From Leptospirillum ferrooxidans C2-3 (lineage in GTDB: Bacteria; Nitrospirota; Leptospirillia; Leptospirillales; Leptospirillaceae): 64,000 nucleotides of DNA. Positions 2,314 through 34,066 of the stretch are shown here, piece by piece. Location of the stretch: positions 1,271,486 through 1,335,485 of the forward strand of contig NC_017094.1 of the NCBI RefSeq assembly GCF_000284315.1, given 5' to 3'. The position numbers and the translations under genes were made by a program. How positions within the stretch are numbered: the stretch's first letter is position 1; the number at the start of each line of letters is the position of its first letter. Below the pieces are notes generated by a model, which had not been told where the DNA came from, made no database searches, and was given only the letters and a program-made list of their open reading frames with translations.

Positions 2314-2880
2314 TCAGACTTTTTTCAGCTCAGAAAAAACCGGCACCGGGTTTCTGATAATATCCAGAACTGGAGAGATCTCCTGCGATGTGGTCCACAG
2401 ATCCTGGAGCTCTGCATCCGTCGCGCTGCTTTTGACCCGGCAGATCACTCGGATACCTTCGTATCCCGGACGGACGCTTTTTGAGAGTCCCAGAAATCCC
2501 TGCAAGTCAAGATCGCCTTCCAGTTCGAGCTCCATGGAATCGATTCCGATTCCGCGTGCCGTGGCATTGTAGACCAATCCGACAACCAGACAAGACGCCA
2601 GAGCGTGAAGAACTGCCTCCACGGCATTTGGCCCGGCATCGCCTCCAAGAAGGACCGGCGGTTCATCGCCTTCCAGAACAAAAGGATTCTTTCTGGAAGA
2701 ATCTTCTTTTCCCGTTCCGTAAAACCCCTGGATTGTCGTTTTGGAATGTGCCCCGGCAACCCATCTGTTATGGGCCCGGAACCTGAAGCGTGCAAGGGAG
2801 GGATCAGACTTGACCGCTGTAACGGTTCCGATCAATGCCTCCAGATTGACCCCGTTTGGTGCTTTTTCCGTATTCTCCAT
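2314..2880 (-). CDS. OsmC-family peroxiredoxin-like protein
   Basis: 188 residues with the OsmC fold signature: GGDAGPNAVEAVLHALASCLVVGLVYNATARG in pieces places the first reactive cysteine after LAS, and the second cysteine is in IRVICRVKSSA. OsmC/YhfA proteins reduce organic hydroperoxides or act on low-molecular-weight persulfides. The gene is first of the minus-strand group and divergent from the persulfide-dioxygenase-like MBL gene, supporting a shared thiol/sulfane-sulfur role (inference). Confidence 0.85.
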   Translation of the reverse strand: MENTEKAPNGVNLEALIGTVTAVKSDPSLARFRFRAHNRWVAGAHSKTTIQGFYGTGKEDSSRKNPFVLEGDEPPVLLGGDAGPNAVEAVLHALASCLVVGLVYNATARGIGIDSMELELEGDLDLQGFLGLSKSVRPGYEGIRVICRVKSSATDAELQDLWTTSQEISPVLDIIRNPVPVFSELKKV

Positions 2881-2995
2881 CGATGTCTCCTTATAAAGGG
2901 AACTCCATTTTCTTGATCTCTGGAGGACTCCAGAGTCTTTTCCTGGAGATGGAAAGAAAGTGGATCAGAAAGCTCCTGAATCCTGCGCTTTGCAG

Positions 2996-3025
2996 TTTGA
3001 CTGCATTGACTTTGACTGCATTGAG
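2996..3025. repeat. Two tandem copies of a 15-bp repeat in the osmC/MBL intergenic region
   Basis: TTTGACTGCATTGAC at 2996-3010 is followed directly by TTTGACTGCATTGAG at 3011-3025, and a third partial TTGAC follows at 3028. The array lies between divergent genes and just upstream of a good promoter-like element, so it may bind a regulator such as the ArsR protein encoded at 3850-4254. Confidence 0.6.
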
Positions 3026-3027
3026 AC

Positions 3028-3057
3028 TTGACAGGATGCTCCACCCCTGCCTATCCT
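3028..3057 (+). promoter_or_regulatory. Sigma70-like promoter for the MBL-ArsR-MFS operon
   Basis: TTGACA (3028-3033), an 18-bp spacer, then TATCCT (3052-3057), about 65 bp upstream of the MBL start. Only the two hexamers and the spacing are seen; activity is inferred. Confidence 0.5.
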
Positions 3058-3121
3058 AGTCAAAAGTTTTCATAGTTGCAATCTTTCTAAAATTAAATAA
3101 TTCTAACACAAAGAGGTACCC

Positions 3122-3853
3122 ATGTTTTTCAAACAATTTGCGACTCAGGAAGCGACACTGTCCTATTTTTATGGATGTGGAGGACTGGGCAAAGCCATAG
3201 CGGTTGATGTCGTCCTGGGCGATGAGGACTGGTTTGTTTTGGAAGCTGAAAAAGCCGGTGTCCGCATTGCCTATGTCGTCGATACCCATGTTCATGCCGA
3301 CCATGTCTCGGGAGGGCGCCGGCTCGCAGAAAGGACCGGAGCAGAGTTCTGCCTTCACGAAAATGCCGGGAAGATCGTACGATCTCCTTTCCATTTTCTG
3401 AAAGATGGCGAGATTCTCGAAACGGGGAATGTCCTGACGAAAATCCTCCATACGCCGGGACACACCCCGGACAGTATCTGTCTTCTGGTCTCTGATCTCC
3501 GCCGCGGAGAGGATCCATGGTTCGTCCTGACCGGAGACACCTTGTTCGTCGGGTCAGTCGGACGACCGGACCTGGGAGGGAAACCGGAAATTCTGGCTGG
3601 AGAGATCTTTTACAGTCTCCGCGACAAAATCCTTTCTCTTCCCGACGAAGTGGAAATCTATCCCGGCCATACCTCCGGAAGTGTTTGTGGTGCGGGCATC
3701 TCCGGAAAACCCTCCTCGACGGTCGGATTTGAAAAACGCTTCAATCCCTTTCTTGCGCTCAAGGATCCTGCCGTTTTCGTTTCCGCCCTGACCGCCGAGA
3801 TTCCGGAAAAGCCGGCGGAATTTGAGAGAATCGTCGCTGCCAACTGCGTATGA
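3122..3853 (+). CDS. MBL-fold persulfide dioxygenase-like protein (ETHE1/Blh type)
   Basis: 243 residues. Metal-binding motifs in order: DTHVHADHVSGG (HxHxDH), HTPGHTPDS, TGDTLFVGSVGRPDL and IYPGHTSGSVCG, with GKPSSTVGFEKRFNPFL at the C-terminal end. This pattern matches ETHE1-type sulfur dioxygenases, which oxidise glutathione persulfide to sulfite, rather than beta-lactamases or glyoxalase II. There is an AAAGAGG ribosome site 5 bp before the ATG. The ATGA overlap with the ArsR gene and the ArsR/MFS overlap make a tight three-gene operon, with a fourth coupled gene after it. Iron dependence is assumed from the family. Confidence 0.85.
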   Translation: MFFKQFATQEATLSYFYGCGGLGKAIAVDVVLGDEDWFVLEAEKAGVRIAYVVDTHVHADHVSGGRRLAERTGAEFCLHENAGKIVRSPFHFLKDGEILETGNVLTKILHTPGHTPDSICLLVSDLRRGEDPWFVLTGDTLFVGSVGRPDLGGKPEILAGEIFYSLRDKILSLPDEVEIYPGHTSGSVCGAGISGKPSSTVGFEKRFNPFLALKDPAVFVSALTAEIPEKPAEFERIVAANCV

Positions 3854-7650: not shown

Positions 7651-8019
7651 ATGGTAACATATGAGTTACTATCAAATATGTCCTTCCAAGTACAAGAATT
7701 GATGGAAGAAAATGGATCAAGCCCCTATGCCGATTGGTTCCAATCGCTTGATCCGACGGCTGCGGCGAAAATCGCCGTAGCTAAGATCAGAATGGAACAA
7801 GGCAATCTATCGAATGTCAAATGGTTCCAAGGGATTGGAGAATACAGAATAGATTGGGGGCCTGGCTATCGAATCCATCTGGCTAAAGAGGGGGAGAAAA
7901 TCATTACCCTGCTTGGCGGAGGAACAAAAAAGGGGCAGCAGAAAGATATCATACAAGCGGTCCAATTATGGGAAAACTATAAGAAACGAAAGGCAAAAGG
8001 AATAAAAAGGAGTCCGTGA
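7651..8019 (+). CDS. Type II toxin, Gp49/HigB-like (RelE/ParE superfamily)
   Basis: 122 residues. The pattern YADWFQSLDPTAAAKIAVAK, WFQGIGEYRIDWGPGYRIHL and LLGGGTKKGQQKDI ending in WENYKKRK is that of the phage-derived Gp49-like (DUF891) addiction-module killer family, which act as ribosome-dependent mRNA endonucleases. Several in-frame ATGs lie near the start, so the N-terminus is uncertain. The stop overlaps the antitoxin GTG start (GTGA), toxin-first order as in higBA. Confidence 0.85.
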   Translation: MVTYELLSNMSFQVQELMEENGSSPYADWFQSLDPTAAAKIAVAKIRMEQGNLSNVKWFQGIGEYRIDWGPGYRIHLAKEGEKIITLLGGGTKKGQQKDIIQAVQLWENYKKRKAKGIKRSP

Positions 8020-8342
8020 ACATGGCTTTAACCAGAGATTTTAAAGAAACCGTTGTCGCTCGCGTTAAGAGTGATCCTGCTTTTGCGCAAGCTCTGCTCG
8101 ATGAGGCCGTGAACCTTTTTCTGAACGGTGAACCAGACATCGCTAGGCTTGTCCTGCGAGACTTGGTGAATGCAACAATAGGATTTGAAGGTTTAGCGAC
8201 GGACATCCATAAATCCAGTAAAAGTATTCATCGGATGCTGTCCAGATCCGGAAATCCAACGATGGAAAATTTTTCAATCATTATCACAGCCATTAAAAAA
8301 GCTCTCCATGTTGACATAAAGGCGCAAGTCGTTCCTGGATGA
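8016..8342 (+). CDS. HigA-like antitoxin with helix-turn-helix
   Basis: 108 residues, starting at GTG 8016 with AAAAGGAG just upstream (an ATG two codons later is the alternative). DFKETVVARVKSDPAFAQALLDEA and LATDIHKSSKSIHRMLSRSGNPTMENFSII are the typical addiction-module antidote sequence with an Xre-type HTH that recognises the operon promoter. It overlaps the toxin gene by four bases and is expected to neutralise it and autoregulate. Confidence 0.85.
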   Translation: MNMALTRDFKETVVARVKSDPAFAQALLDEAVNLFLNGEPDIARLVLRDLVNATIGFEGLATDIHKSSKSIHRMLSRSGNPTMENFSIIITAIKKALHVDIKAQVVPG

Positions 8343-10333: not shown

Positions 10334-11410
10334 CTAGAACTTTTTCTGGAGGTCTTCCTGCCAGGGAGTCATCGTTCCACCCAAAATTCCGATCTTGTCC
10401 CTGCTGGTATGGTACTGGTTCATTTTGACCTTCAGGAGATGGACTCCCGGATCAAGGTCAAGCATCATGGGTGTCACACCATAAAAGACATTATCGATAT
10501 AGACCTTCGCGCCTGAAGGGGTTGTTGTGACCACGAGCCTTCCCTTGCCTGCCGGGATGGGATTCTTCTGGAGATTATACTGATCTGCCGACAGGGTTTT
10601 TCCGGATACGGTTGCGGGATTGGCCGACGCTTCGACCTGGATCGATCCCGGAAAGACCTTGGCAAGATGTCCCACAGAGCGGTCCGCATATCCAAGAATG
10701 ACCTTCTGGAGATCCCGGTCAAGCCGTTCAGCCGCAACTTCAAGAGGTTTGGAATGCTGGCTCTTGGTCATTGAACGCTCATGAATCCTGGTTCCCCAAA
10801 TGGGATGGCCTGTCTGGGCATTGATAAAATACACATCGAGCTCGACCTGGTCTTTGGAGATCGCGGATCCTGTTCCTTCAATATAGCCGGTATGCGAGGA
10901 CTGGAACTGGTAATTCATGATTCGGCCGACAATAAAAACATCGACATTCGGAAATCGGGAGCGAAGGGTCTGGACCCATCCGTTCGTCTGGAAAGAAAAG
11001 TCCGCAGGTGGATGATGGATCAGTGTGGATTTCAGGCCAAGGTAGTTGAACTGATCAACGAATGCCTTGGTCACATGAAGGTCGACATCCGAATCTGTCC
11101 TGTAAGTATTCGTTCCCCAACCGATATATTGGCGGTCTCCGGTCATCAGTGTGCTGGCCCGGTCATCTTTGAAGAGAACGACACCGAAGCGGAGGGATGA
11201 AGCATATTGATGAGGTTTTGTCATGCCGGCGCTGGGACGGTATTCAAGCTTGACCGGTGCCTGTGCGCAGCCGATGGGAGTCCCGATCGCGATAATCATC
11301 AAGGCTCCAAACAGGAGTCGCATCAATCTTGTTTTGGAAAGAACTGGACCGTGTGTGGACATTTTGCTCCATTTCCTCTTGAAAAAATTGTGTTTTTCCA
11401 TGATCCCCAT
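10334..11410 (-). CDS. PEGA-domain lipoprotein
   Basis: 358 residues in the longest form. A signal segment with lipobox-like TPIGCAQ (Cys at about residue 49) suggests a lipoprotein, so the true start may be one of the internal Mets nearer the signal. The C-terminus, GRLVVTTTPSGAKVYIDN and YGVTPMMLDLDPGVH, is a PEGA domain, a beta-sandwich typical of surface-layer and cell-envelope proteins. The middle resembles a lipoprotein adhesin-like domain with DVFIVGRIMNYQFQ. Last gene before the terminator and tRNA. Confidence 0.7.
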   Translation of the reverse strand: MGIMEKHNFFKRKWSKMSTHGPVLSKTRLMRLLFGALMIIAIGTPIGCAQAPVKLEYRPSAGMTKPHQYASSLRFGVVLFKDDRASTLMTGDRQYIGWGTNTYRTDSDVDLHVTKAFVDQFNYLGLKSTLIHHPPADFSFQTNGWVQTLRSRFPNVDVFIVGRIMNYQFQSSHTGYIEGTGSAISKDQVELDVYFINAQTGHPIWGTRIHERSMTKSQHSKPLEVAAERLDRDLQKVILGYADRSVGHLAKVFPGSIQVEASANPATVSGKTLSADQYNLQKNPIPAGKGRLVVTTTPSGAKVYIDNVFYGVTPMMLDLDPGVHLLKVKMNQYHTSRDKIGILGGTMTPWQEDLQKKF

Positions 11411-11459
11411 CCTCTACCGGGGACCCAAACCCATTCTGCGCTGGTCGGTTCAGTGCTGA

Positions 11460-25240: not shown

Positions 25241-25516
25241 TTATCCTTTGAGGTTACGATAAAAATTCTCATGAGTCCCAATCAGCAGCAAGACACGATT
25301 GGCCAGATCGTATTCGTAGGCTAAAAGAAATCGTTGGTTCACACAGTCGAACTTGTAAACGTAAATACCTGATAGGTCAGATTTCTTCTCTTCTCCGATG
25401 GCCGGATCAGAAACGATATTCTCCACAGCCTGATCAACTGCCTCCTTCTGATTTCTCCTTGATTTTTTATAAGTACGCAGGAATACATTGGTCTGGCGAA
25501 CAACTCTTTCAGCCAC
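25241..25516 (-). CDS. RelE/ParE-family toxin
   Basis: 91 residues from a GTG that overlaps the last codons of the antitoxin (reading begins AERVVRQTNVFLRTYKK). The segments DQAVENIVSDPAIGEEKKSDL, VYKFDCVNQRFLLAYEYD and LLIGTHENFYRNLK match small RelE/ParE toxins, including the C-terminal GxHxNFY end. Antitoxin-first order; likely target is mRNA on ribosomes or gyrase, not decided by sequence. Confidence 0.8.
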   Translation of the reverse strand: MAERVVRQTNVFLRTYKKSRRNQKEAVDQAVENIVSDPAIGEEKKSDLSGIYVYKFDCVNQRFLLAYEYDLANRVLLLIGTHENFYRNLKG

Positions 25517-25736
25517 GTAAATGGCCTTGACTGAACGGGGTGAGCTGATCTTTCTCTTCTGATCTCGCAATGAGAAGCTCACGGATAAAATCAACCGGAA
25601 GATCCGGGTTCTCCAATGCGACCCTGCCCACCCTGGCCCAATACTCAAGTTGCCCGGCAATAGTGCGACACTCGCCTTTTGCGGCCGTCTTTGCTTGATG
25701 ATATAAATCATCATTCATTCGGATTGACATGCTCAT
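25509..25736 (-). CDS. ParD-like antitoxin
   Basis: 75 residues if started at the ATG at 25736, which has GGAG 6 nt upstream (an ATG four codons earlier at 25748 is possible). MSIRMNDDLYHQAKTAAKGE and RTIAGQLEYWARVGRVALEN are the ribbon-helix-helix pattern of ParD-like antitoxins. The end overlaps the toxin start. Confidence 0.8.
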   Translation of the reverse strand: MSMSIRMNDDLYHQAKTAAKGECRTIAGQLEYWARVGRVALENPDLPVDFIRELLIARSEEKDQLTPFSQGHLRG

Positions 25737-25748
25737 CAGATTCTCCAT

Positions 25749-26073: not shown

Positions 26074-26472
26074 TCACGACCGGCGAATCGGGGAATAAAA
26101 GTGGCAATATCCCATCGGGCTCACGGGACCTTCGACGACTTCACAGAGTCCCATTTTACCCATCATTTTGCCATTCATTCCTCCCATTCGCATTCCCTGC
26201 ATCATTTGGCCCATTCCGGCCATGTTTTCCATCATCTGTTTCATTTCCGGACTGCCAGGAAGGAAATGTGTGCAGTTCATGCACATTTTCCCTTGATCTG
26301 GATGCGACTGATAATGGGCGATTTTTTGACTGATTTTGAGGGTTCCTGCAAAAGCCGGATTCCTCTCAAGAAAGATCCAACCGGCGCTCAATAATGCAAA
26401 AACCGGGATTTGCCGCAAAAAGTCTCTTCTCGAAAGACTGCCATTCAAACGTCTCAAAGATTTTTTATCCAT
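26074..26472 (-). CDS. High-potential iron-sulfur-like protein with Met-rich insert
   Basis: 132 residues from ATG 26472 (GGAGG upstream). A twin-arginine signal SRRDFLRQ (RR 15-16) and hydrophobic core precede a mature domain with CMNC-type (Cys64, Cys67), then Cys110 and Cys123 in CEVVEGPVSPMGYCHFY. The spacing of the last two cysteines and the MCMNC start match HiPIP, which holds a 4Fe-4S cluster and carries electrons in the periplasm. Between Cys67 and Cys110 sits a stretch with 13 Met in about 34 residues (about 77-107), not usual for HiPIP and suggestive of copper binding. Last gene of the copper operon. Confidence 0.7.
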   Translation of the reverse strand: MDKKSLRRLNGSLSRRDFLRQIPVFALLSAGWIFLERNPAFAGTLKISQKIAHYQSHPDQGKMCMNCTHFLPGSPEMKQMMENMAGMGQMMQGMRMGGMNGKMMGKMGLCEVVEGPVSPMGYCHFYSPIRRS

Positions 26473-26657
26473 GTTTTCCTCCAGAAATTCCGGGATTCCA
26501 TCTGCCGCGGATCCGGATGGGACCCTGTTTTTCATGAAAGCCCTTCTCCCGGAACGGGAAGTTCCGGGAGAGTTCCCGACGCAGGAGAGCATGGAATCCC
26601 CATGGCCAGAGAGGGCCTCATTGAAAATGCAGTGGAGATCGAACAACTCCGGTCGAC

Positions 26658-27046
26658 TTACTTTTTCTGAATGATCTCGAGTAGAAGGGATTCATCCCTG
26701 ATCATCTGGTCCATCATTTTGTTCATGACAAGATTGTACTGCTCCATCCTGCGATCAGAACGGACGAGATCCGCGATCGTTGTCATCTTTCCCATTTTCA
26801 TGCTTTCCTGCATCAGCTTGTTCATTTCTTTTCGCATGATTTTATTGTTGTTCTTGATCATTTTTATTTGTGCCGAAAGGGCATTCTGGCGTTCTATCCC
26901 ACTCGTCTTTTCGGCCTGTCTCAATTTCGCCTCAGATTTATCCATCTTCTGGTTCAGGAAGACATCAGCAGGATTGACTGCCCACGCACCTACTGGGAAA
27001 CCCAGAGAGAAGATTGCCGATGAAATGAGTATCGTTTTTTACACAT
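26658..27046 (-). pseudogene. Exported helical protein of the copper operon, signal peptide out of frame
   Basis: The mature frame (MDKSEAKLRQAEKTSGIERQ ... LLLEIIQKK) is highly helical, Met/Lys-rich, like small periplasmic metal-stress proteins. Upstream codons in that frame give a good signal peptide (TILISSAIFSLGFPVGAWAV) but meet a stop before any start. ATG 27046 (MCKK) is one base out of phase across a run of six A (27040-27035); seven A would join them perfectly. Either a real frameshift, a sequencing error or a phase-variable tract. From ATG 26945 the protein would lack a signal. Confidence 0.55.
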
Positions 27047-27216: not shown

Positions 27217-27609
27217 TTAAGGAAGTTCTTCGATCTTTGTGATGACGGGACCCTCAGTGCCCTGAATCACATCGAAACGGACATGCTCCCCTTTTTTCAA
27301 ATCGGATAGCTCTGACCGGTGCTTTACACCGAAGGCCATGGTCATCCCCTTCCATCCGAATGCCTTGATAGGACCATGGGCAATCGTGACCGTTCCGGCC
27401 TTCGGATCCACTGCCTTCACGACCCCCTTCCCATGCCCTACAGATGCCGGTGCGCTTCCTGTCCCGGAGGACATGCCGGACATCCCGTTCATATCCCCCA
27501 TTCCTCCTCCCATGTCATCTGCCAGGGCAACGGTCGTGGCAAGAAGCATTCCCGTCAGGACCAACGTGCTTCCTGCCATTGTTCCCAAGTGATTTTTTAA
27601 AGATTTCAT
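27217..27609 (-). CDS. cusF: CusF-like periplasmic copper chaperone
   Basis: 130 residues from ATG 27609. Signal peptide, a Met/Gly-rich mature N-terminus, and a CusF domain with His78, Trp86, Met89 and Met91, the same 8-3-2 spacing as the Cu(I) site of E. coli CusF (H36, W44, M47, M49). It hands copper or silver to CusB/CusA. 49 bp after cusA. Confidence 0.88.
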   Translation of the reverse strand: MKSLKNHLGTMAGSTLVLTGMLLATTVALADDMGGGMGDMNGMSGMSSGTGSAPASVGHGKGVVKAVDPKAGTVTIAHGPIKAFGWKGMTMAFGVKHRSELSDLKKGEHVRFDVIQGTEGPVITKIEELP

Positions 27610-27658
27610 CAGGTGTTTCCTTTCCTTTAAGGTTGGGAGAGCCTGTAGAAGAGATCTT

Positions 27659-30600
27659 CTACAGGGGTGGACGGAGTGGATGAGAGTCTCTTTTTTCGGC
27701 TTCCCGACGGAGATCACTCTCTTTCCACATCCGAAACAGTACAGGGAGTACGAGAAGGCTCAGGATCATGGCGGTCACCATACCGCCAACCATCGGCGCG
27801 GCGATCCGTTTCATGACATCCGATCCGGTCTTATGGCTCCACATGATCGGGAGAAGTCCCGCGAGGATGACCGTTCCTGTCATGGCGATCGGGCGCAGAC
27901 GATACAGCGTTCCTTCGAGGATCGCTTTATCGAGATCCTCCGGTGTGGAAAGAGTTCCATTCATCCGGCGAAGATCAACTGAGCGATCGAGATAAAGGAT
28001 CATCACGATTCCGAACTCGGCGGCGACCCCGGCCAAAGCGATCATTCCCGTGACGACGGCCACAGAGAGGCGGTAATGAAGTCCGTACAAAAACCACAGG
28101 CTTCCGAGTACCGCAAAGGGAAGGGGGAGGAGGATCATTCCTGTTTTGGCAGCACTCCTGAAATGGATATACAGAAGTCCGACAATGAGCAAAAAGGCAA
28201 GTGGCAAAACCAGGGCCAGTCGTTTTTTTGCCCGTTTAATCGAGGTGTATTGTCCGGACCAGGAGAGAGTCGTTCCCGGAGGAAGCGAGACGGAGCTGGC
28301 AATAGCCTTCCGGGCCAGCGCGACATAGCCACCCAGATCTCCTCCCTTTGGTTCGATATAGATCCATCCGGTCAGGCGGGCATTTTCGGTTTTGATCATC
28401 GTGGGACCGTCCTCAATCGAAAGGGATGCCAGACGGGAAAGAGGAACCTCCTCTCCGTCTGGAGTGGAAAGAAGGGATGCACCAATGGCGTCGAGCGATC
28501 CCCGATCTTCTCTGGGGAAACGAAGATTCACCGGAAATCGTTCCCGACCCTGGATCACGGTGGTCAGGGATTCTCCTCCGATGGCGGTTTCCACCAGCCG
28601 GTTCACATCTGCGATGTTGAGACCATAACGGGCGGCTCTTCGGCGATGGATGTCCACGACGATGTACCGTCCTCCCGTGAGGCGATCAGCATAGACAGAG
28701 GAGGTTTCCGGGAGTTTTTTGAGAACCTCCCGGATCTGCCGGTCGATACGGTTGATGGTGTCGAGCGATGCAGCTGTCACCTTGAGCCCTAGAGGCGACT
28801 TGATTCCGGTTGAGAGCATGTTGACCCGGTTGATGATCGGCATGGTCCAGATATTGGAAATACCCGGAAGCAGGACGGTTTCATTCAACTTTTCCTTCAG
28901 ACTGGAGAGGGTCATTTCCGGGGGCCATTCGCTCCGGGGCTTGAGCATCACCACCGTATCGAACATGGTGAGATGGGCCGAATCCGTCGCTGTCTCGGCG
29001 CGGCCTGCCTGCCCAAAGACCCGCTCCACTTCGGGAACGGTTTTAATGAGCCGGTCGGTGATCTGGAGCAGATGGGCCGATTCTCCCACCGAGACACCGG
29101 GAGTCAGTGTGGGCATGTACAAAAGGTCGCCCTCATAGAGAGGGGGCATGAACTCCGTTCCAAGATGAGAAAGGGGTATCACCGCTGTGGCAAGGCATAG
29201 TCCTGAAAAGATGAGTGTGCGTTTTCTGTGGCGAAGGACCCACCCGATAACGGGTCGATAAAGAAGAACAAGGATCCGGTTGATGATGTTGGACTCCTCC
29301 GGTTTCATCCTGCCCCGAAGGAGAAATCCCATCAGGACCGGAACAAGTGTGATCGAAAGACCGGCGGAGATGGCGATCGAATAGGTTTTTGTGAACGCCA
29401 ATGGTTTAAAGAGACGGCCTTCCTGTTCCTGCAATGCGAAGATGGGAAGAAAGGAGACCGTAATCACCAGGAGCGAAAAGAAAAGAGAAGGCCCCACCTC
29501 CCGGGCTGCTCTCAGGGCCGTTTCCCAGGAGGTTTCCGACCCGTCGGCCCGCTCCTGGTGTTTGTGCATGTTCTCGATCATCACGATCGCCGCGTCGACC
29601 ATGACCCCGACCGAGACGGCGATTCCGCCGAGGGACATGATATTGGCGGTGAGTCCTTGTTCGGCCATCAGGACAAAGGCTCCAAAAATTCCCACCGGAA
29701 GGGAGAGGATTGCCACAAGCGAAGAGCGGATGCTGGAAAGGAAGAGGATGCAAACCAGAGAAACTGCAACGGATTCTTCCAGGAGTTTTTCCAGGAGGGT
29801 CCTGATGCTTTTCAGAATGAGTCTCGAACGGTCGTAGGTCGTTTCGATCTCCACCCCTGGAGGCAACATCGGGGTGAGACTCTTGAGCTTCGACTTGACC
29901 TCTTCAATGATTTTCAAGGCGTTGGTTCCGGCTCTGGAGATGACAATCCCCCCCGCGACCTCGCCTTTTCCGTCGAGTTCTGCCACTCCTTGCCTGAGCT
30001 GGGGTCCGAGATGAACGGACGCGATATCGCCCAAGCGAACCGGATTGCCGCCGGCACCCGAGACAATGGGGATTTTCCGGATATCAGAAATCGAATGGAG
30101 ATAACCCCTCGTCCGGACCATGTACTGGGCTTCGTTCATATCCACGACCGACCCGCCCACCTCTCCATTCGATTCCCTGATGGCATCCTCGACCCGTGAA
30201 AGGGGAATATGGTCGGCCAGAAGCTTTCGCTGGTCGATGACCACCTGAAACTCCTTGACCATCCCTCCGACCGACGCCACCTGCGCCACCCCATGAATGC
30301 TTTGCAGTTCAAATTTCAGAAACCAGTCCTGAAGGGTCCTTAGCTGTGAGAGATCGAGGGTGTGTGTGGTGTCGACGAGGGCGTATTCATAGACCCATCC
30401 CAACCCGGTGGCATCCGGACCGAGAGAGGCGGTGACCCCGGATGGAAGGCGGCCTTCGACCTGATTGAGATATTCGAGTACCCGGGATCTGGCCCAGTAT
30501 TGATAGGTCCCTTCCTTGAACAGAATGTAGATGAGGGAATTCCCGAAGTCGGAATACCCTCGCACATGGCGGACTCCGGGAATGGTCAGGAAGGCGGTCG

Positions 30601-30808
30601 TCAGTGGATAGGTCACCTGGTTTTCAACGACGGAAGGCGGTTGGCCGGCAAAAGAGGCCTTGACGATGACCTGCGTATCGGAGAGATCCGGGATGGCATC
30701 CAGCGGACTTCGATAGAGGGAAACCGCTCCCCATGCGACAATGGCGAGGGCCAGTCCCAATACCCAGTACCTCCGCTGAATCGACCAGGTGATGATTCTT
30801 GTAATCAT
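27659..30808 (-). CDS. cusA: Copper/silver efflux RND transporter CusA
   Basis: 1049 residues, the normal length of HME-RND pumps. It starts LWSIQRRYWVLG-like at the inner membrane and carries RND landmarks GVRHVRGYSDFGNSLIYILF, SLGGIAVSVGVMVDAAIVMI (TM4 motif) and LVITVSFLPIFALQEQEGRL. The substrate class is inferred from similarity and the neighbouring CusF. Its ATG overlaps the cusB stop (ATGA). Confidence 0.93.
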   Translation of the reverse strand: MITRIITWSIQRRYWVLGLALAIVAWGAVSLYRSPLDAIPDLSDTQVIVKASFAGQPPSVVENQVTYPLTTAFLTIPGVRHVRGYSDFGNSLIYILFKEGTYQYWARSRVLEYLNQVEGRLPSGVTASLGPDATGLGWVYEYALVDTTHTLDLSQLRTLQDWFLKFELQSIHGVAQVASVGGMVKEFQVVIDQRKLLADHIPLSRVEDAIRESNGEVGGSVVDMNEAQYMVRTRGYLHSISDIRKIPIVSGAGGNPVRLGDIASVHLGPQLRQGVAELDGKGEVAGGIVISRAGTNALKIIEEVKSKLKSLTPMLPPGVEIETTYDRSRLILKSIRTLLEKLLEESVAVSLVCILFLSSIRSSLVAILSLPVGIFGAFVLMAEQGLTANIMSLGGIAVSVGVMVDAAIVMIENMHKHQERADGSETSWETALRAAREVGPSLFFSLLVITVSFLPIFALQEQEGRLFKPLAFTKTYSIAISAGLSITLVPVLMGFLLRGRMKPEESNIINRILVLLYRPVIGWVLRHRKRTLIFSGLCLATAVIPLSHLGTEFMPPLYEGDLLYMPTLTPGVSVGESAHLLQITDRLIKTVPEVERVFGQAGRAETATDSAHLTMFDTVVMLKPRSEWPPEMTLSSLKEKLNETVLLPGISNIWTMPIINRVNMLSTGIKSPLGLKVTAASLDTINRIDRQIREVLKKLPETSSVYADRLTGGRYIVVDIHRRRAARYGLNIADVNRLVETAIGGESLTTVIQGRERFPVNLRFPREDRGSLDAIGASLLSTPDGEEVPLSRLASLSIEDGPTMIKTENARLTGWIYIEPKGGDLGGYVALARKAIASSVSLPPGTTLSWSGQYTSIKRAKKRLALVLPLAFLLIVGLLYIHFRSAAKTGMILLPLPFAVLGSLWFLYGLHYRLSVAVVTGMIALAGVAAEFGIVMILYLDRSVDLRRMNGTLSTPEDLDKAILEGTLYRLRPIAMTGTVILAGLLPIMWSHKTGSDVMKRIAAPMVGGMVTAMILSLLVLPVLFRMWKESDLRREAEKRDSHPLRPPL

Positions 30809-32064
30809 GGCCGGCCTCCTTCGGACATCCTGGCAGAAACATTTTCAAACCGGGACTCAGAATCGAGAAGGAACTGTCCGCTGACAACGACCCGTTCTCC
30901 TTCTCCCAGACCTTCGAGGACTTCGACCCAGTGGCGTGACCGAGCTCCGGTTTTGACCCTGGCTGGCCGGAAGAGTCCCTCTCCGGTTTCTGTCATCACG
31001 ACCGTTTTGGATCCGGTCCGGATCAATGCTTCCCGCGGAATGACCAATACATCGGGATGCGGGTCAGGATGCAGCGTGGCTTCAAGGTACATCCCCGCCT
31101 TCAAGAATCCGTCAGGATTGGGGACAGTCACCCGGGCCCGGATCGTCCGGCTGGTTTTTCCCACCTCTGGATTTAAAAATTGAAGTCTTCCCCGGTATGT
31201 TCTTCTGGACGGTGATGAAAATCGAAGGACAACGGCATCTCCATTTTTGACCCAGGCCAGTTCCGGGTTATAAAAGAACACATTGACCCAGAGTTTTTGG
31301 GTGTCAGCCAGGGTCATCAAGGGATTTTTCGGCGAGACCTCCCCACCGACCCGGGCCGGAATCGATGTCACGATGCCCGAGTAGGCAGAGATGACTGGTA
31401 TGACGGATCGGGGTTTTCCCGTTTTCACAAGTCGCCTGATTTCAAATTCGGGGACACCCAGAAGTGTTAGTCGTTCCTGTGCCGCGTTCCAGATTTTCTG
31501 ATTGTCCGCTGATCCGGGATCGGACCGGAGTGCCAGAAGGGCGATCCGGGCTTCATATTCTGAATTGGCAAGTTCGGGGGAGTAAATCTCTGCGATGGTT
31601 TCCCCCTTCCGGACGATCTCCCCTTCGGATCGAATGTTTAACGTTCGTATCCAACCGGAAAATCGTGGCGTAATGACCCGGATGCGGTGCTCATCGAAGG
31701 CCACTGTTGCTGCCGCCCTGATGGTACGGGTGAAGGTCCGTCTCTTGACTGTCGCAAGGCGGATCCCGAGCGTCTGGCGAATTTCCGGACTCACCCGGAC
31801 AGAGGTTCCGGGAGAGCTCGCGGGACTGGAAAAGACAGGAAGGTAATCCATTCCCATGTTGTCCTTCATCGGATGATCTGCATGAATGGACGGATTCATG
31901 GGATTTCTCCAATAAAGAATCGTTTGTTTCGGAGGAGATTTTGGCGTTTCAGCCATGAGCGGAGAAGGGGCTTTTGAAGACCCCCTCCAGTGTTCGGCTC
32001 CGGCACCGATTCCTATCCCCAGAAAAAGGACCATAAAGGACAAAACAAGAGATCTAGTTTTCAC
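30805..32064 (-). CDS. cusB: CusB periplasmic adaptor (membrane fusion protein)
   Basis: 419 residues from GTG 32064, chosen because GGGAGG lies 6 nt upstream and it overlaps the cusC stop in the usual way. A signal/anchor, then YWRNPMNPSIHADHPMKDNMGMDYLPVF (in pieces, the HME adaptor heavy-metal-binding start), a beta-barrel and lipoyl domain RFSGWIRTLNIRSEGEIVRKG and hairpin ELANSEYEARIALLALRSDP. It bridges CusA and CusC. Confidence 0.9.
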   Translation of the reverse strand: MKTRSLVLSFMVLFLGIGIGAGAEHWRGSSKAPSPLMAETPKSPPKQTILYWRNPMNPSIHADHPMKDNMGMDYLPVFSSPASSPGTSVRVSPEIRQTLGIRLATVKRRTFTRTIRAAATVAFDEHRIRVITPRFSGWIRTLNIRSEGEIVRKGETIAEIYSPELANSEYEARIALLALRSDPGSADNQKIWNAAQERLTLLGVPEFEIRRLVKTGKPRSVIPVISAYSGIVTSIPARVGGEVSPKNPLMTLADTQKLWVNVFFYNPELAWVKNGDAVVLRFSSPSRRTYRGRLQFLNPEVGKTSRTIRARVTVPNPDGFLKAGMYLEATLHPDPHPDVLVIPREALIRTGSKTVVMTETGEGLFRPARVKTGARSRHWVEVLEGLGEGERVVVSGQFLLDSESRFENVSARMSEGGRP

Positions 32065-33481
32065 GGGAGCCTCCCTGAAGGCGACCTTTAAGATAGTCAA
32101 GGTTCGCCATTTCCTTGATTTTCTCCACCCGGATATCAAGCGCCTGAAGTTCGATATCCTCGACCTTTTTCATGGATTCAAGAACACGTCCCATATGAAC
32201 TGTTCCTGTGGAGTAGTCGTTCAGAGCGGCCTCCGTATTTCTGTGGGCTTCCGGAAGAAGGCGGTGATCGAAAAAAAGTGCTCGATGAGAGAGATGACGG
32301 TAGCCCGCTTCGTCATCTCTGATCTCCTGGGCAAGCTTTTGGCGCAATTCATCACGCTGGGCCTCAAAGGATTCGAGATTTGCCTCTTCTTCCCGGACCT
32401 TCTGATCTTGTCGCTCGCCTGGTCGGAGCGGAAGGTTCATCGTGAGAACCACCGAAAAAAGGTTTGGTGTGCTGGTAATGAGACTCGGCCCCATGAAGTA
32501 GCTGTAATCTCCTTCGACGGAAAACGCGGGGATTTTGTCCTTTTTGGCGGCTTGGACCCGAAGGGCCTGGGCGGTATTTTCTTCGGCGCTGGATTTAAGC
32601 GCAGGGTGGAGATTGATCTGGGAGAGCATTAAGGACTCGGGAAGGGGAAGCGGACATTTTGGCTCTTCGTCAGAGATCCTGAACGGTTGGGATCGGTGCA
32701 TGAGTCGCATCAGATGATGGAGGCTCTCTTCTCTCTGAATCTCGAGAACTTCCTCTTTGTCTTTGAGATTGTCTTTCTGAAACTGGGCAAGAAGAAGATC
32801 GGACTCAGATCCTGTGCCCTGTCGATATCTCGTCAGGGCTGCATCGAAGGCCTCCTGCCAGAGAAGCCCGATCGACCGGAGCAGGAGCTCCGTCCTGGTG
32901 TTTCGATAGAGATCAAGCCAGTTGAGTCGAACATCCCGGACAAGCCGGAGTTTTCGTTCTTCCAGGTTCCATCTGGAGGCGCTCTCTTTCCTGAGAAAAC
33001 TCTTCTGGAGAAGATCTCGCTTCCCCATGGGTGAAAAGCTTTGCCTGAGTCCTACGGTTGTCATGGCCAGGAGGCTTTGTCCCATGTTGAAACTGATCGG
33101 GAAATACTGCTCCCCCAGAACCAGCTTGGGGTCAGGCAGTTCTCCTGCCTGGATGGAAAGAGTCTTTTCCCTCTCTATCCGGGCCTGATCCTTTGCCAGT
33201 GAGGGATTTTTTTGAAGTGCCTCCCAAACTGCCTGATCGATTGTGAGGACAGGAATGTCCGATTTTTGAAGAAAGGACTCTCCCGGTAGACTAGATTCCC
33301 CCGCCCAGGCAATTGCCCCCTCACGATATGATCCATCGAACAGGATTGCACCGGATAGAAGGATTGGAGGCAACATCCAAAAACCGGTTTTTTTAAATGA
33401 CCTGAGCGCTCCTGCGGGAGGCAGGGATTTTAAGGAGAATTTCTGAAAAATAGAACTAGAGACAATATGAAGAAATGACAT
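32054..33481 (-). CDS. cusC: CusC/TolC-like outer membrane efflux channel
   Basis: 475 residues. TolC-family pattern: two repeated coiled-coil halves, VLTIDQAVWEALQKNPSLAK near the N-terminus and GYRHLSHRALFFDHRLLPEA, LNDYSTGTVHMGRVLESM near the C-terminus. It is the outer membrane channel for CusBA. The N-terminus is longer than usual and the start is uncertain. Confidence 0.85.
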   Translation of the reverse strand: MSFLHIVSSSIFQKFSLKSLPPAGALRSFKKTGFWMLPPILLSGAILFDGSYREGAIAWAGESSLPGESFLQKSDIPVLTIDQAVWEALQKNPSLAKDQARIEREKTLSIQAGELPDPKLVLGEQYFPISFNMGQSLLAMTTVGLRQSFSPMGKRDLLQKSFLRKESASRWNLEERKLRLVRDVRLNWLDLYRNTRTELLLRSIGLLWQEAFDAALTRYRQGTGSESDLLLAQFQKDNLKDKEEVLEIQREESLHHLMRLMHRSQPFRISDEEPKCPLPLPESLMLSQINLHPALKSSAEENTAQALRVQAAKKDKIPAFSVEGDYSYFMGPSLITSTPNLFSVVLTMNLPLRPGERQDQKVREEEANLESFEAQRDELRQKLAQEIRDDEAGYRHLSHRALFFDHRLLPEAHRNTEAALNDYSTGTVHMGRVLESMKKVEDIELQALDIRVEKIKEMANLDYLKGRLQGGSREN

Positions 33482-33541: not shown

Positions 33542-33976
33542 TCAGATCAAAAGGGGACGGCTAACCGGGGGGAAGAAGGAAAGTCTCTCTGGAAATAAAA
33601 GATGCGAGGGTTTTGTCTTCATTCTGATAATCGGTTGTTTTGGAGAAGAGTCTGCGACGATCGGGAGCACCGGAGGCCATATGCGCGAGAAGGAGGGTGT
33701 GTTTTCCTCTCCAGAGACCGATAGAACACATAAGTCACACAGAGAGGCCTGACAAAGGGCGACCCTGTTCTTTCCATGGCAACAGGGAAGCTCTCCCTTC
33801 ATGGGACAGGAGGAGGGCATCGCATTTTTGGATTTGAGACTATGGCCACCCGTCATGGCCATGGATGGCGTCATGGCCTGAGCGATGGGAGCCTCCCCTG
33901 CCCTGCACAAAAAACAGACAAGTGCGAGAAGAAGAGCAAAAAAAAGATTTTTTTGAAGCAGCGCCAGAATCTTCAT
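33542..33976 (-). CDS. Small Cys-rich exported protein at the head of the cus operon
   Basis: 144 residues from ATG 33976 (MKILALLQKNLFFALLLALV signal). The mature part has several cysteines (SCPMKGELPCCHG, LCQASLCDLCVLS) and Met/His residues, like DUF2946-type proteins of copper operons. Function unknown; probably metal binding. First gene, 60 bp before cusC. A TTGACA-like -35 is at 34011-34006 on the minus strand. Confidence 0.55.
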   Translation of the reverse strand: MKILALLQKNLFFALLLALVCFLCRAGEAPIAQAMTPSMAMTGGHSLKSKNAMPSSCPMKGELPCCHGKNRVALCQASLCDLCVLSVSGEENTPSFSRIWPPVLPIVADSSPKQPIIRMKTKPSHLLFPERLSFFPPVSRPLLI

Positions 33977-34066
33977 GGATTGATTGTGAGTCGCGTCAAA
34001 ACTCATGTCAAGTGAAATGGGCAACAGTTGAAGGAGTACTAATTGCCAGAAGGCTAAGAATCCTGT

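Follow-up and report, generated by a model that had tools for sequence, protein, structure and literature searches.

What would a HiPIP with a methionine-rich loop be doing at the end of a cus copper operon? In the textbook view, HiPIPs carry electrons in phototrophs and in acidophilic iron or sulfur oxidisers. The question is raised by a 64,000-nucleotide stretch of Leptospirillum ferrooxidans C2-3 (the window), an organism with a 2.56 Mb genome in a single contig whose closest relatives form one family of 21 genomes. A preliminary description of the window had drawn attention to the gene, which we call the Met-loop HiPIP gene. The features of the locus are collected in Table 1.

Table 1. Features of the cus-HiPIP locus in the window, ordered by position.
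Feature	Position	Strand	Basis
Met-loop HiPIP gene, 132 aa	26074..26472	(-)	sequence; HiPIP profile and PDB comparisons
Met-rich C2-C3 loop of HiPIP, residues 68-110 including Cys3, 13 Met	26143..26271	(-)	composition; kept in 12 homologues
Tat signal peptide region of Met-loop HiPIP, SRRDFLRQIPVFALLSAGWIFLERNPAFA	26344..26472	(-)	sequence; RR invariant in alignment
Perfect intergenic inverted repeat, TCCCGGAAC-N5-GTTCCGGGA	26547..26569	(-)	upstream of HiPIP gene
p95, small Met/Lys-rich protein, apparently exported	26658..27038	(-)	ORF between cusF and HiPIP gene
cusF-like gene	27217..27717	(-)	PF11604 88 bits; PDB CusF alignment
cusA RND pump	27659..30808	(-)	TIGR00914 1123 bits; PDB CusA best match
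cusB membrane-fusion protein	30805..32139	(-)	PF16576, PRK09783
cusC-type outer-membrane factor	32054..33481	(-)	PF02321 102 bits
p160, small Cys/Met-containing protein, operon head	33542..34024	(-)	conserved in sister operons (tblastn)

The open reading frame starts with an ATG at 26472, ends in a stop, and translates as MDKKSLRRLNGSLSRRDFLRQIPVFALLSAGWIFLERNPAFA-GTLKISQKIAHYQSHPDQGKMCMNCTHFLPGSPEMKQMMENMAGMGQMMQGMRMGGMNGKMMGKMGLCEVVEGPVSPMGYCHFYSPIRRS, with a dash at the presumed cleavage site of the signal. A Tat signal occupies residues ~1-43 and the HiPIP domain residues ~47-127. The Tat signal, already recognized in the preliminary description, was borne out: the motif is S14-R15-R16-D-F-L, and both arginines are invariant in 12 homologues. 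By this motif the protein is predicted to be exported through Tat, whose leaders are found mainly on proteins that are already folded around a cofactor when they are exported.

The ligand cysteines are residues 64, 67, 110 and 123 (C64-x2-C67 and C110-x12-C123), and both the HiPIP cysteine order and the C-terminal motif (C-x2-C ... C ... [YW]-C; PMGYC) are present. The four cysteines had been described as standing in family spacing, which is right for C1-C2 and C3-C4 and wrong for C2-C3, because there the loop replaces the 8-14 residues of ordinary HiPIPs: the interval is 42 residues here versus 8 or 14, without methionine, in seven ordinary HiPIPs. The 13 methionines counted earlier between Cys2 and Cys3 are indeed there, making up 13/42 residues of the loop and all lying within residues 77-107, with a repeated MxxM spacing. 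At the methionine frequency of the window's long ORFs (2.3%), the chance of 13 in a 42-residue loop is ~8.5e-12, and the densest other 42-residue stretch among those ORFs has six. The composition of the loop suggests that it probably binds copper.

Pfam (cut-off 22 bits) gave no PF01355 match to the intact window protein, and the best score for any intact homologue was 12.8 bits, in the only one matched (L036). When the loop was removed, PF01355 scored 14.7 bits for the window protein and 21.0 and 22.7 bits for two relatives, one of these being above the cut-off, so the intact protein is missed by the Pfam model because of the insert. The NCBIfam Iro model NF041615 matches the intact window protein in two stretches (8e-6, 26.1 bits) and loop-free versions at 1.3e-6 to 1.1e-7 (28.6 bits); these scores lie below its threshold of 100 bits, which makes the Met-loop HiPIP a relative of the Iro iron oxidase and no member of that family. 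With phmmer against the PDB, PioC, the R. tenuis HiPIP and a third HiPIP were matched, each in two stretches flanking the loop, and a profile of the 12 homologues strengthened the E-values for the HiPIPs 6xyv, 3h31 and 1isu to 2e-6, 1.2e-4 and 2.7e-4. Aligned by hhalign with six HiPIPs from Rhizobium and haloarchaea, the family reached 99.2% probability (E 2.8e-19), and the Met loop was essentially the sole gap inside the cysteine domain. AlphaFold2 models of the full-length and mature protein, built from 12-row alignments, were uninformative (pLDDT 46 and 40).

The nearest solved structure is PioC of Rhodopseudomonas palustris TIE-1 (PDB 6xyv). PioC and the Iro-type HiPIPs of NF041615 share with the window protein the small HiPIP domain and the C1-C2 and C3-C4 motifs, whereas PioC has no Met loop, so that its matched stretches are adjacent (chain residues 2-32 and 33-53), and its gene lies in an iron-oxidation (pio) operon instead of a copper operon. 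The Rhizobium Iro-type HiPIP has a twin-arginine leader, as does ours. An unannotated small Tat-type HiPIP lies on a Rhizobium megaplasmid (L108, 5860-6177, (+); NF041615 57 bits, PF01355 17 bits). HiPIP membership, for which the preliminary description had proposed an HMM search, is upheld by the loop-free PF01355, intact NF041615 and hhalign results. These comparisons show the window protein, as far as homology can, to be a HiPIP by descent. We regard its architecture and genomic role as new, and infer that it carries a [4Fe-4S] cluster.

As had been reported, cusF, cusA, cusB and cusC lie on the same strand as the HiPIP gene; p95, which went unmentioned, intervenes before cusF. Orthologues of all four are found in E. 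coli CusCFBA, with Cu(I)/Ag(I) ligands kept, although the gene order here, CBA-F, differs, and to our knowledge E. coli Cus has no p160, p95 or HiPIP genes. In a PDB search the window CusA scored 1151 bits against E. coli CusA versus 482 bits against ZneA, and its Met565, Met615 and Met664 align with the E. coli CusA methionine triad, which is present in 11/11 operons compared. The His, Trp and two Met (H/W/M/M) of E. coli CusF are all present in the CusF of the window. We take the CusA triad and these CusF residues to be Cu(I) ligands, and by them the operon is a Cus system of the Cu(I) type. Across these operons, CusF begins with a Met-rich tail at its N terminus (in the window, DDMGGGMGDMNGMSGMSSG), so Met-rich tracts recur in the last operon genes.

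Two small proteins complete the operon. p160 had no family match above cut-off in Pfam or NCBIfam and has the motif CPMKG..PCCH..LC..LCDLC. In the same-genus loci L031 and L032, p95 starts with MLK(K/R)..., while the window has a frame shift right behind the ATG and so no in-frame ATG at the expected start, which may reflect a sequencing error, an unusual start or a genuine frameshift. In some of the other genera, weak relatives of p95 follow the HiPIP gene.

Does the HiPIP gene belong to this operon? We found the Met-loop HiPIP in 9/396 genomes of the phylum, all nine in the Leptospirillum family, and the 396 genomes held none outside these cus operons or outside this family. All 13 intact copies that we read are directly downstream of cusF, or of cusF and one small gene. 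Two decayed copies hold the same place after cusF, one with a stop and frame breaks (L044, ~3200-3520) and one with the leader region alone left (L103, ~11215-11450). Where a contig extends far enough on the upstream side, the genes run p160-cusC-cusB-cusA-cusF-HiPIP. The HiPIP-bearing operons have a clade of CusA at least 77% identical to the window CusA, and this clade occurs in 10/21 family genomes, nine of them with an intact HiPIP and one with a remnant. The other 11 have neither the HiPIP nor the CusA clade; their RND pumps are 31-35% identical, or there is no match. A distribution of 9/10 versus 0/11 genomes gives a one-sided exact P of ~3e-5, uncorrected for kinship and with several of the genomes incomplete. 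Across operons, HiPIP distances are correlated with those of CusA (Mantel r = 0.86, p = 0.0002; r = 0.73, p = 0.0006 without the window's genus), which argues that the cus-HiPIP operon evolves as a unit. The neighbourhood survey called for in the preliminary description thus came out in its favour, since no homologue turned up that lacked the Met loop or stood outside a cus operon. From these gene neighbourhoods, the HiPIP gene is shown to be a stable and, among the genomes searched, exclusive member of this cus operon clade.

In several sister-genus loci (L034, L035) the gap between cusF and the HiPIP gene is ~30 bases, which supports co-transcription there; it is longer in the window because p95 lies in between. 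The inverted repeat of Table 1 has 9 bp arms, and its hairpin, which has no T run, is kept in both same-genus loci and is a possible mRNA processing or attenuation element. Adjoining the operon in the window is a gene for a ParE-like toxin, preceded by a small partner ORF (25241-25748, (-)), and the same pair is seen downstream of the HiPIP gene in L035 and L107. In genome G100 (L036, 10946-13495, (+)), the HiPIP gene is followed by a probable P-type ATPase with an N-terminal YHS-like motif, recognized by eye from the translation.

Across 12 aligned homologues, both Tat arginines, the four cysteines, GKMCM-x-C and SPMGYC-x-FY are invariant. In the 13 intact copies, which are not fully independent because those of G051 and G056 are identical and both counted, the C2-C3 loop has 36-42 residues and 8-13 methionines in 13/13; its length and exact residues drift and its Met richness is kept. 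The invariance of the four cysteines and core motifs argues that selection maintains the cluster site and that it is no vestige, and the alignment shows HiPIP domain and Met-rich loop both to be under selection. Among plasmids there was no close relative, the matches that we read being plain HiPIPs of Rhizobium and haloarchaea. Viral contigs held no cus-linked relative, and a HiPIP-like motif was found there only inside large phage proteins; in phage contigs L112, L113 and L114 (~8000-8100) it takes the form CANCMLYAGGDVC[KR]IIEQPVEPMGYCRF within a very large protein.

Our preferred reading, which we hold at about even confidence, is that in this HiPIP variant electron transfer by a [4Fe-4S] cluster is coupled with the handling of Cu(I)/Cu(II) on behalf of CusF and CusA. 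Tat would export the protein folded and with its [4Fe-4S] cluster, and the expanded C2-C3 loop would provide a Met-rich Cu(I) site near the cluster in sequence. The protein would then act as redox partner of CusF and CusCBA in periplasmic copper handling, loop-held copper exchanging an electron with the cluster so that the right copper valence is presented to CusF and CusA. Sites made of thioethers only strongly raise the Cu(II)/Cu(I) potential and, unlike His sites, bind at low pH, and at ~550-633 mV copper bound by thioethers could take part in electron exchange. Potentials of acidophile HiPIPs are Em ~550-633 mV (PMC10879576).

Electrons could move in either direction. Reduction of Cu(II) by the HiPIP is plausible with CusF as the sink, and oxidation of Cu(I) is plausible with the oxidised respiratory chain as the sink, as for the CueO Met-rich helix. 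We favour Cu(II) to Cu(I) somewhat, because Cu(I) is what the Cus pumps accept, and the copper on offer in an aerobic, acid habitat rich in Fe(III) is mainly Cu(II); this direction is a thermodynamic guess. That a cluster is assembled, that the loop binds copper and that electrons pass between the two, in the direction favoured, are predictions of the coupling reading. Multicopper-oxidase domains (PF07732) occur in several Met-HiPIP genomes and are absent from the genome of the window, so in some family members a cuprous-oxidase role would not be unique to the HiPIP. The idea that the Met-loop HiPIP stands in for a missing CueO was not supported by the same distribution.

How well do other readings account for the locus? 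The Met loop might simply buffer Cu(I) for delivery to CusF and CusB, like SilE/PcoE, on a HiPIP scaffold whose cluster, if any, is structural. The repeated MxxM spacing, the similar tail on CusF and the position of the gene directly after cusF in sister operons all agree with this, yet a buffer needs no HiPIP fold, and the four cysteines and the C1-C2 and C3-C4 core motifs are invariant; the Tat leader is also typical of cofactor-folded proteins. A pure buffer is the chief rival of the coupling reading, and we judge it to be rather doubtful. More radically, the cluster might have been lost and the four cysteines might bind another metal, such as copper or zinc. The lack of a Pfam HiPIP match for the intact protein and a loop longer than in any HiPIP compared point that way, and against them stand the clear homology of the segments flanking the loop and the kept C1-C2 and C3-C4 motifs, including GYC-x-FY, which leave a non-HiPIP very improbable.

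It is improbable, too, that the protein is an ordinary respiratory HiPIP placed in the cus operon for copper stress, with a Met loop that scavenges oxidants or stray Cu(I) and so shields the cluster. HiPIPs do serve in the respiration of other acidophiles (PMC10879576) and Leptospirillum grows by Fe(II) oxidation (PMC5772234), but this HiPIP is missing from family genomes without this cus operon, including three that are 95-99% complete (G010, G028, G019), which argues that it is not a general respiratory component. PF01355 searches of 198 genomes of the phylum also gave no match above cut-off and only sub-threshold noise, as did the search of the window's own genome. A redox or copper sensor of the operon, as suggested in the preliminary description, found no specific support: sensing of copper is conceivable for an Fe-S protein that is exported and has a loop probably binding copper, yet this one has no signalling domain or membrane anchor, and no conserved regulator adjoins the HiPIP gene in the loci inspected. 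We give the sensor hardly any credence.

The coupling of redox and copper chemistry that we prefer has partial parallels elsewhere. The E. coli multicopper oxidase CueO has copper centres instead of an Fe-S cluster and reduces O2, and SilE/PcoE are operon-linked periplasmic proteins with probable methionine-based metal buffering. SilE/PcoE differ from the Met-loop HiPIP in having no Fe-S domain. The fold of CueO is unrelated to HiPIP, and the likeness is one of design, its Met-rich helix or insert binding Cu(I) within a redox protein that serves copper tolerance in the periplasm (PMC9302797). A HiPIP is joined to the copper chaperone domain NosL in a protein from a plasmid of Haloarcula sp. 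GH36 (L109, 5827-6645, (+); PF01355 28.7 bits, PF05573 55.1 bits), and a second haloarchaeal fusion of this kind was recognized by translation on plasmid L130 (~2800-3600). HiPIP and copper are paired in these fusions as in the Met-loop HiPIP, which hints at a second, independent HiPIP-copper pairing; in the L109 protein the copper domain is separate, and the HiPIP part has a 14-residue C2-C3 loop and no Met loop. The L109 protein is annotated as NosL only, and a literature text search found no paper on HiPIP with NosL. On a Haloferax gibbonsii plasmid (L126, 1-3168), a HiPIP directly follows a P-type ATPase of the heavy-metal kind that contains two HMA domains.

In titles and abstracts of the accessible, mostly non-subscription literature, we found no description of a HiPIP with a Met-rich region together with copper, copper efflux or copper resistance, and none of a Cus-linked HiPIP, in keeping with the preliminary description, which knew of none; the literature searched also gave no HiPIP role in copper handling. 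A multi-omics study of L. ferriphilum lists cusABCF and reports Cus proteins strongly raised on chalcopyrite, and the terms 'HiPIP' and 'iron-sulfur protein' are absent from its main text (PMC5772234). The Met-loop insert explains how such HiPIPs escape Pfam. Our results suggest that copper export in Leptospirillum is tied to electron transfer. More tentatively, and at somewhat less than even confidence, the HiPIP may be a copper-redox module that sets the copper valence for the RND pump and so links the export of copper with respiratory electron flow in acidophilic iron oxidisers. The Met-loop HiPIP family offers a direct handle on the source of Cu(I) for Cus pumps in an oxidising, Cu(II)-rich habitat, in the organisms that are used in copper bioleaching.
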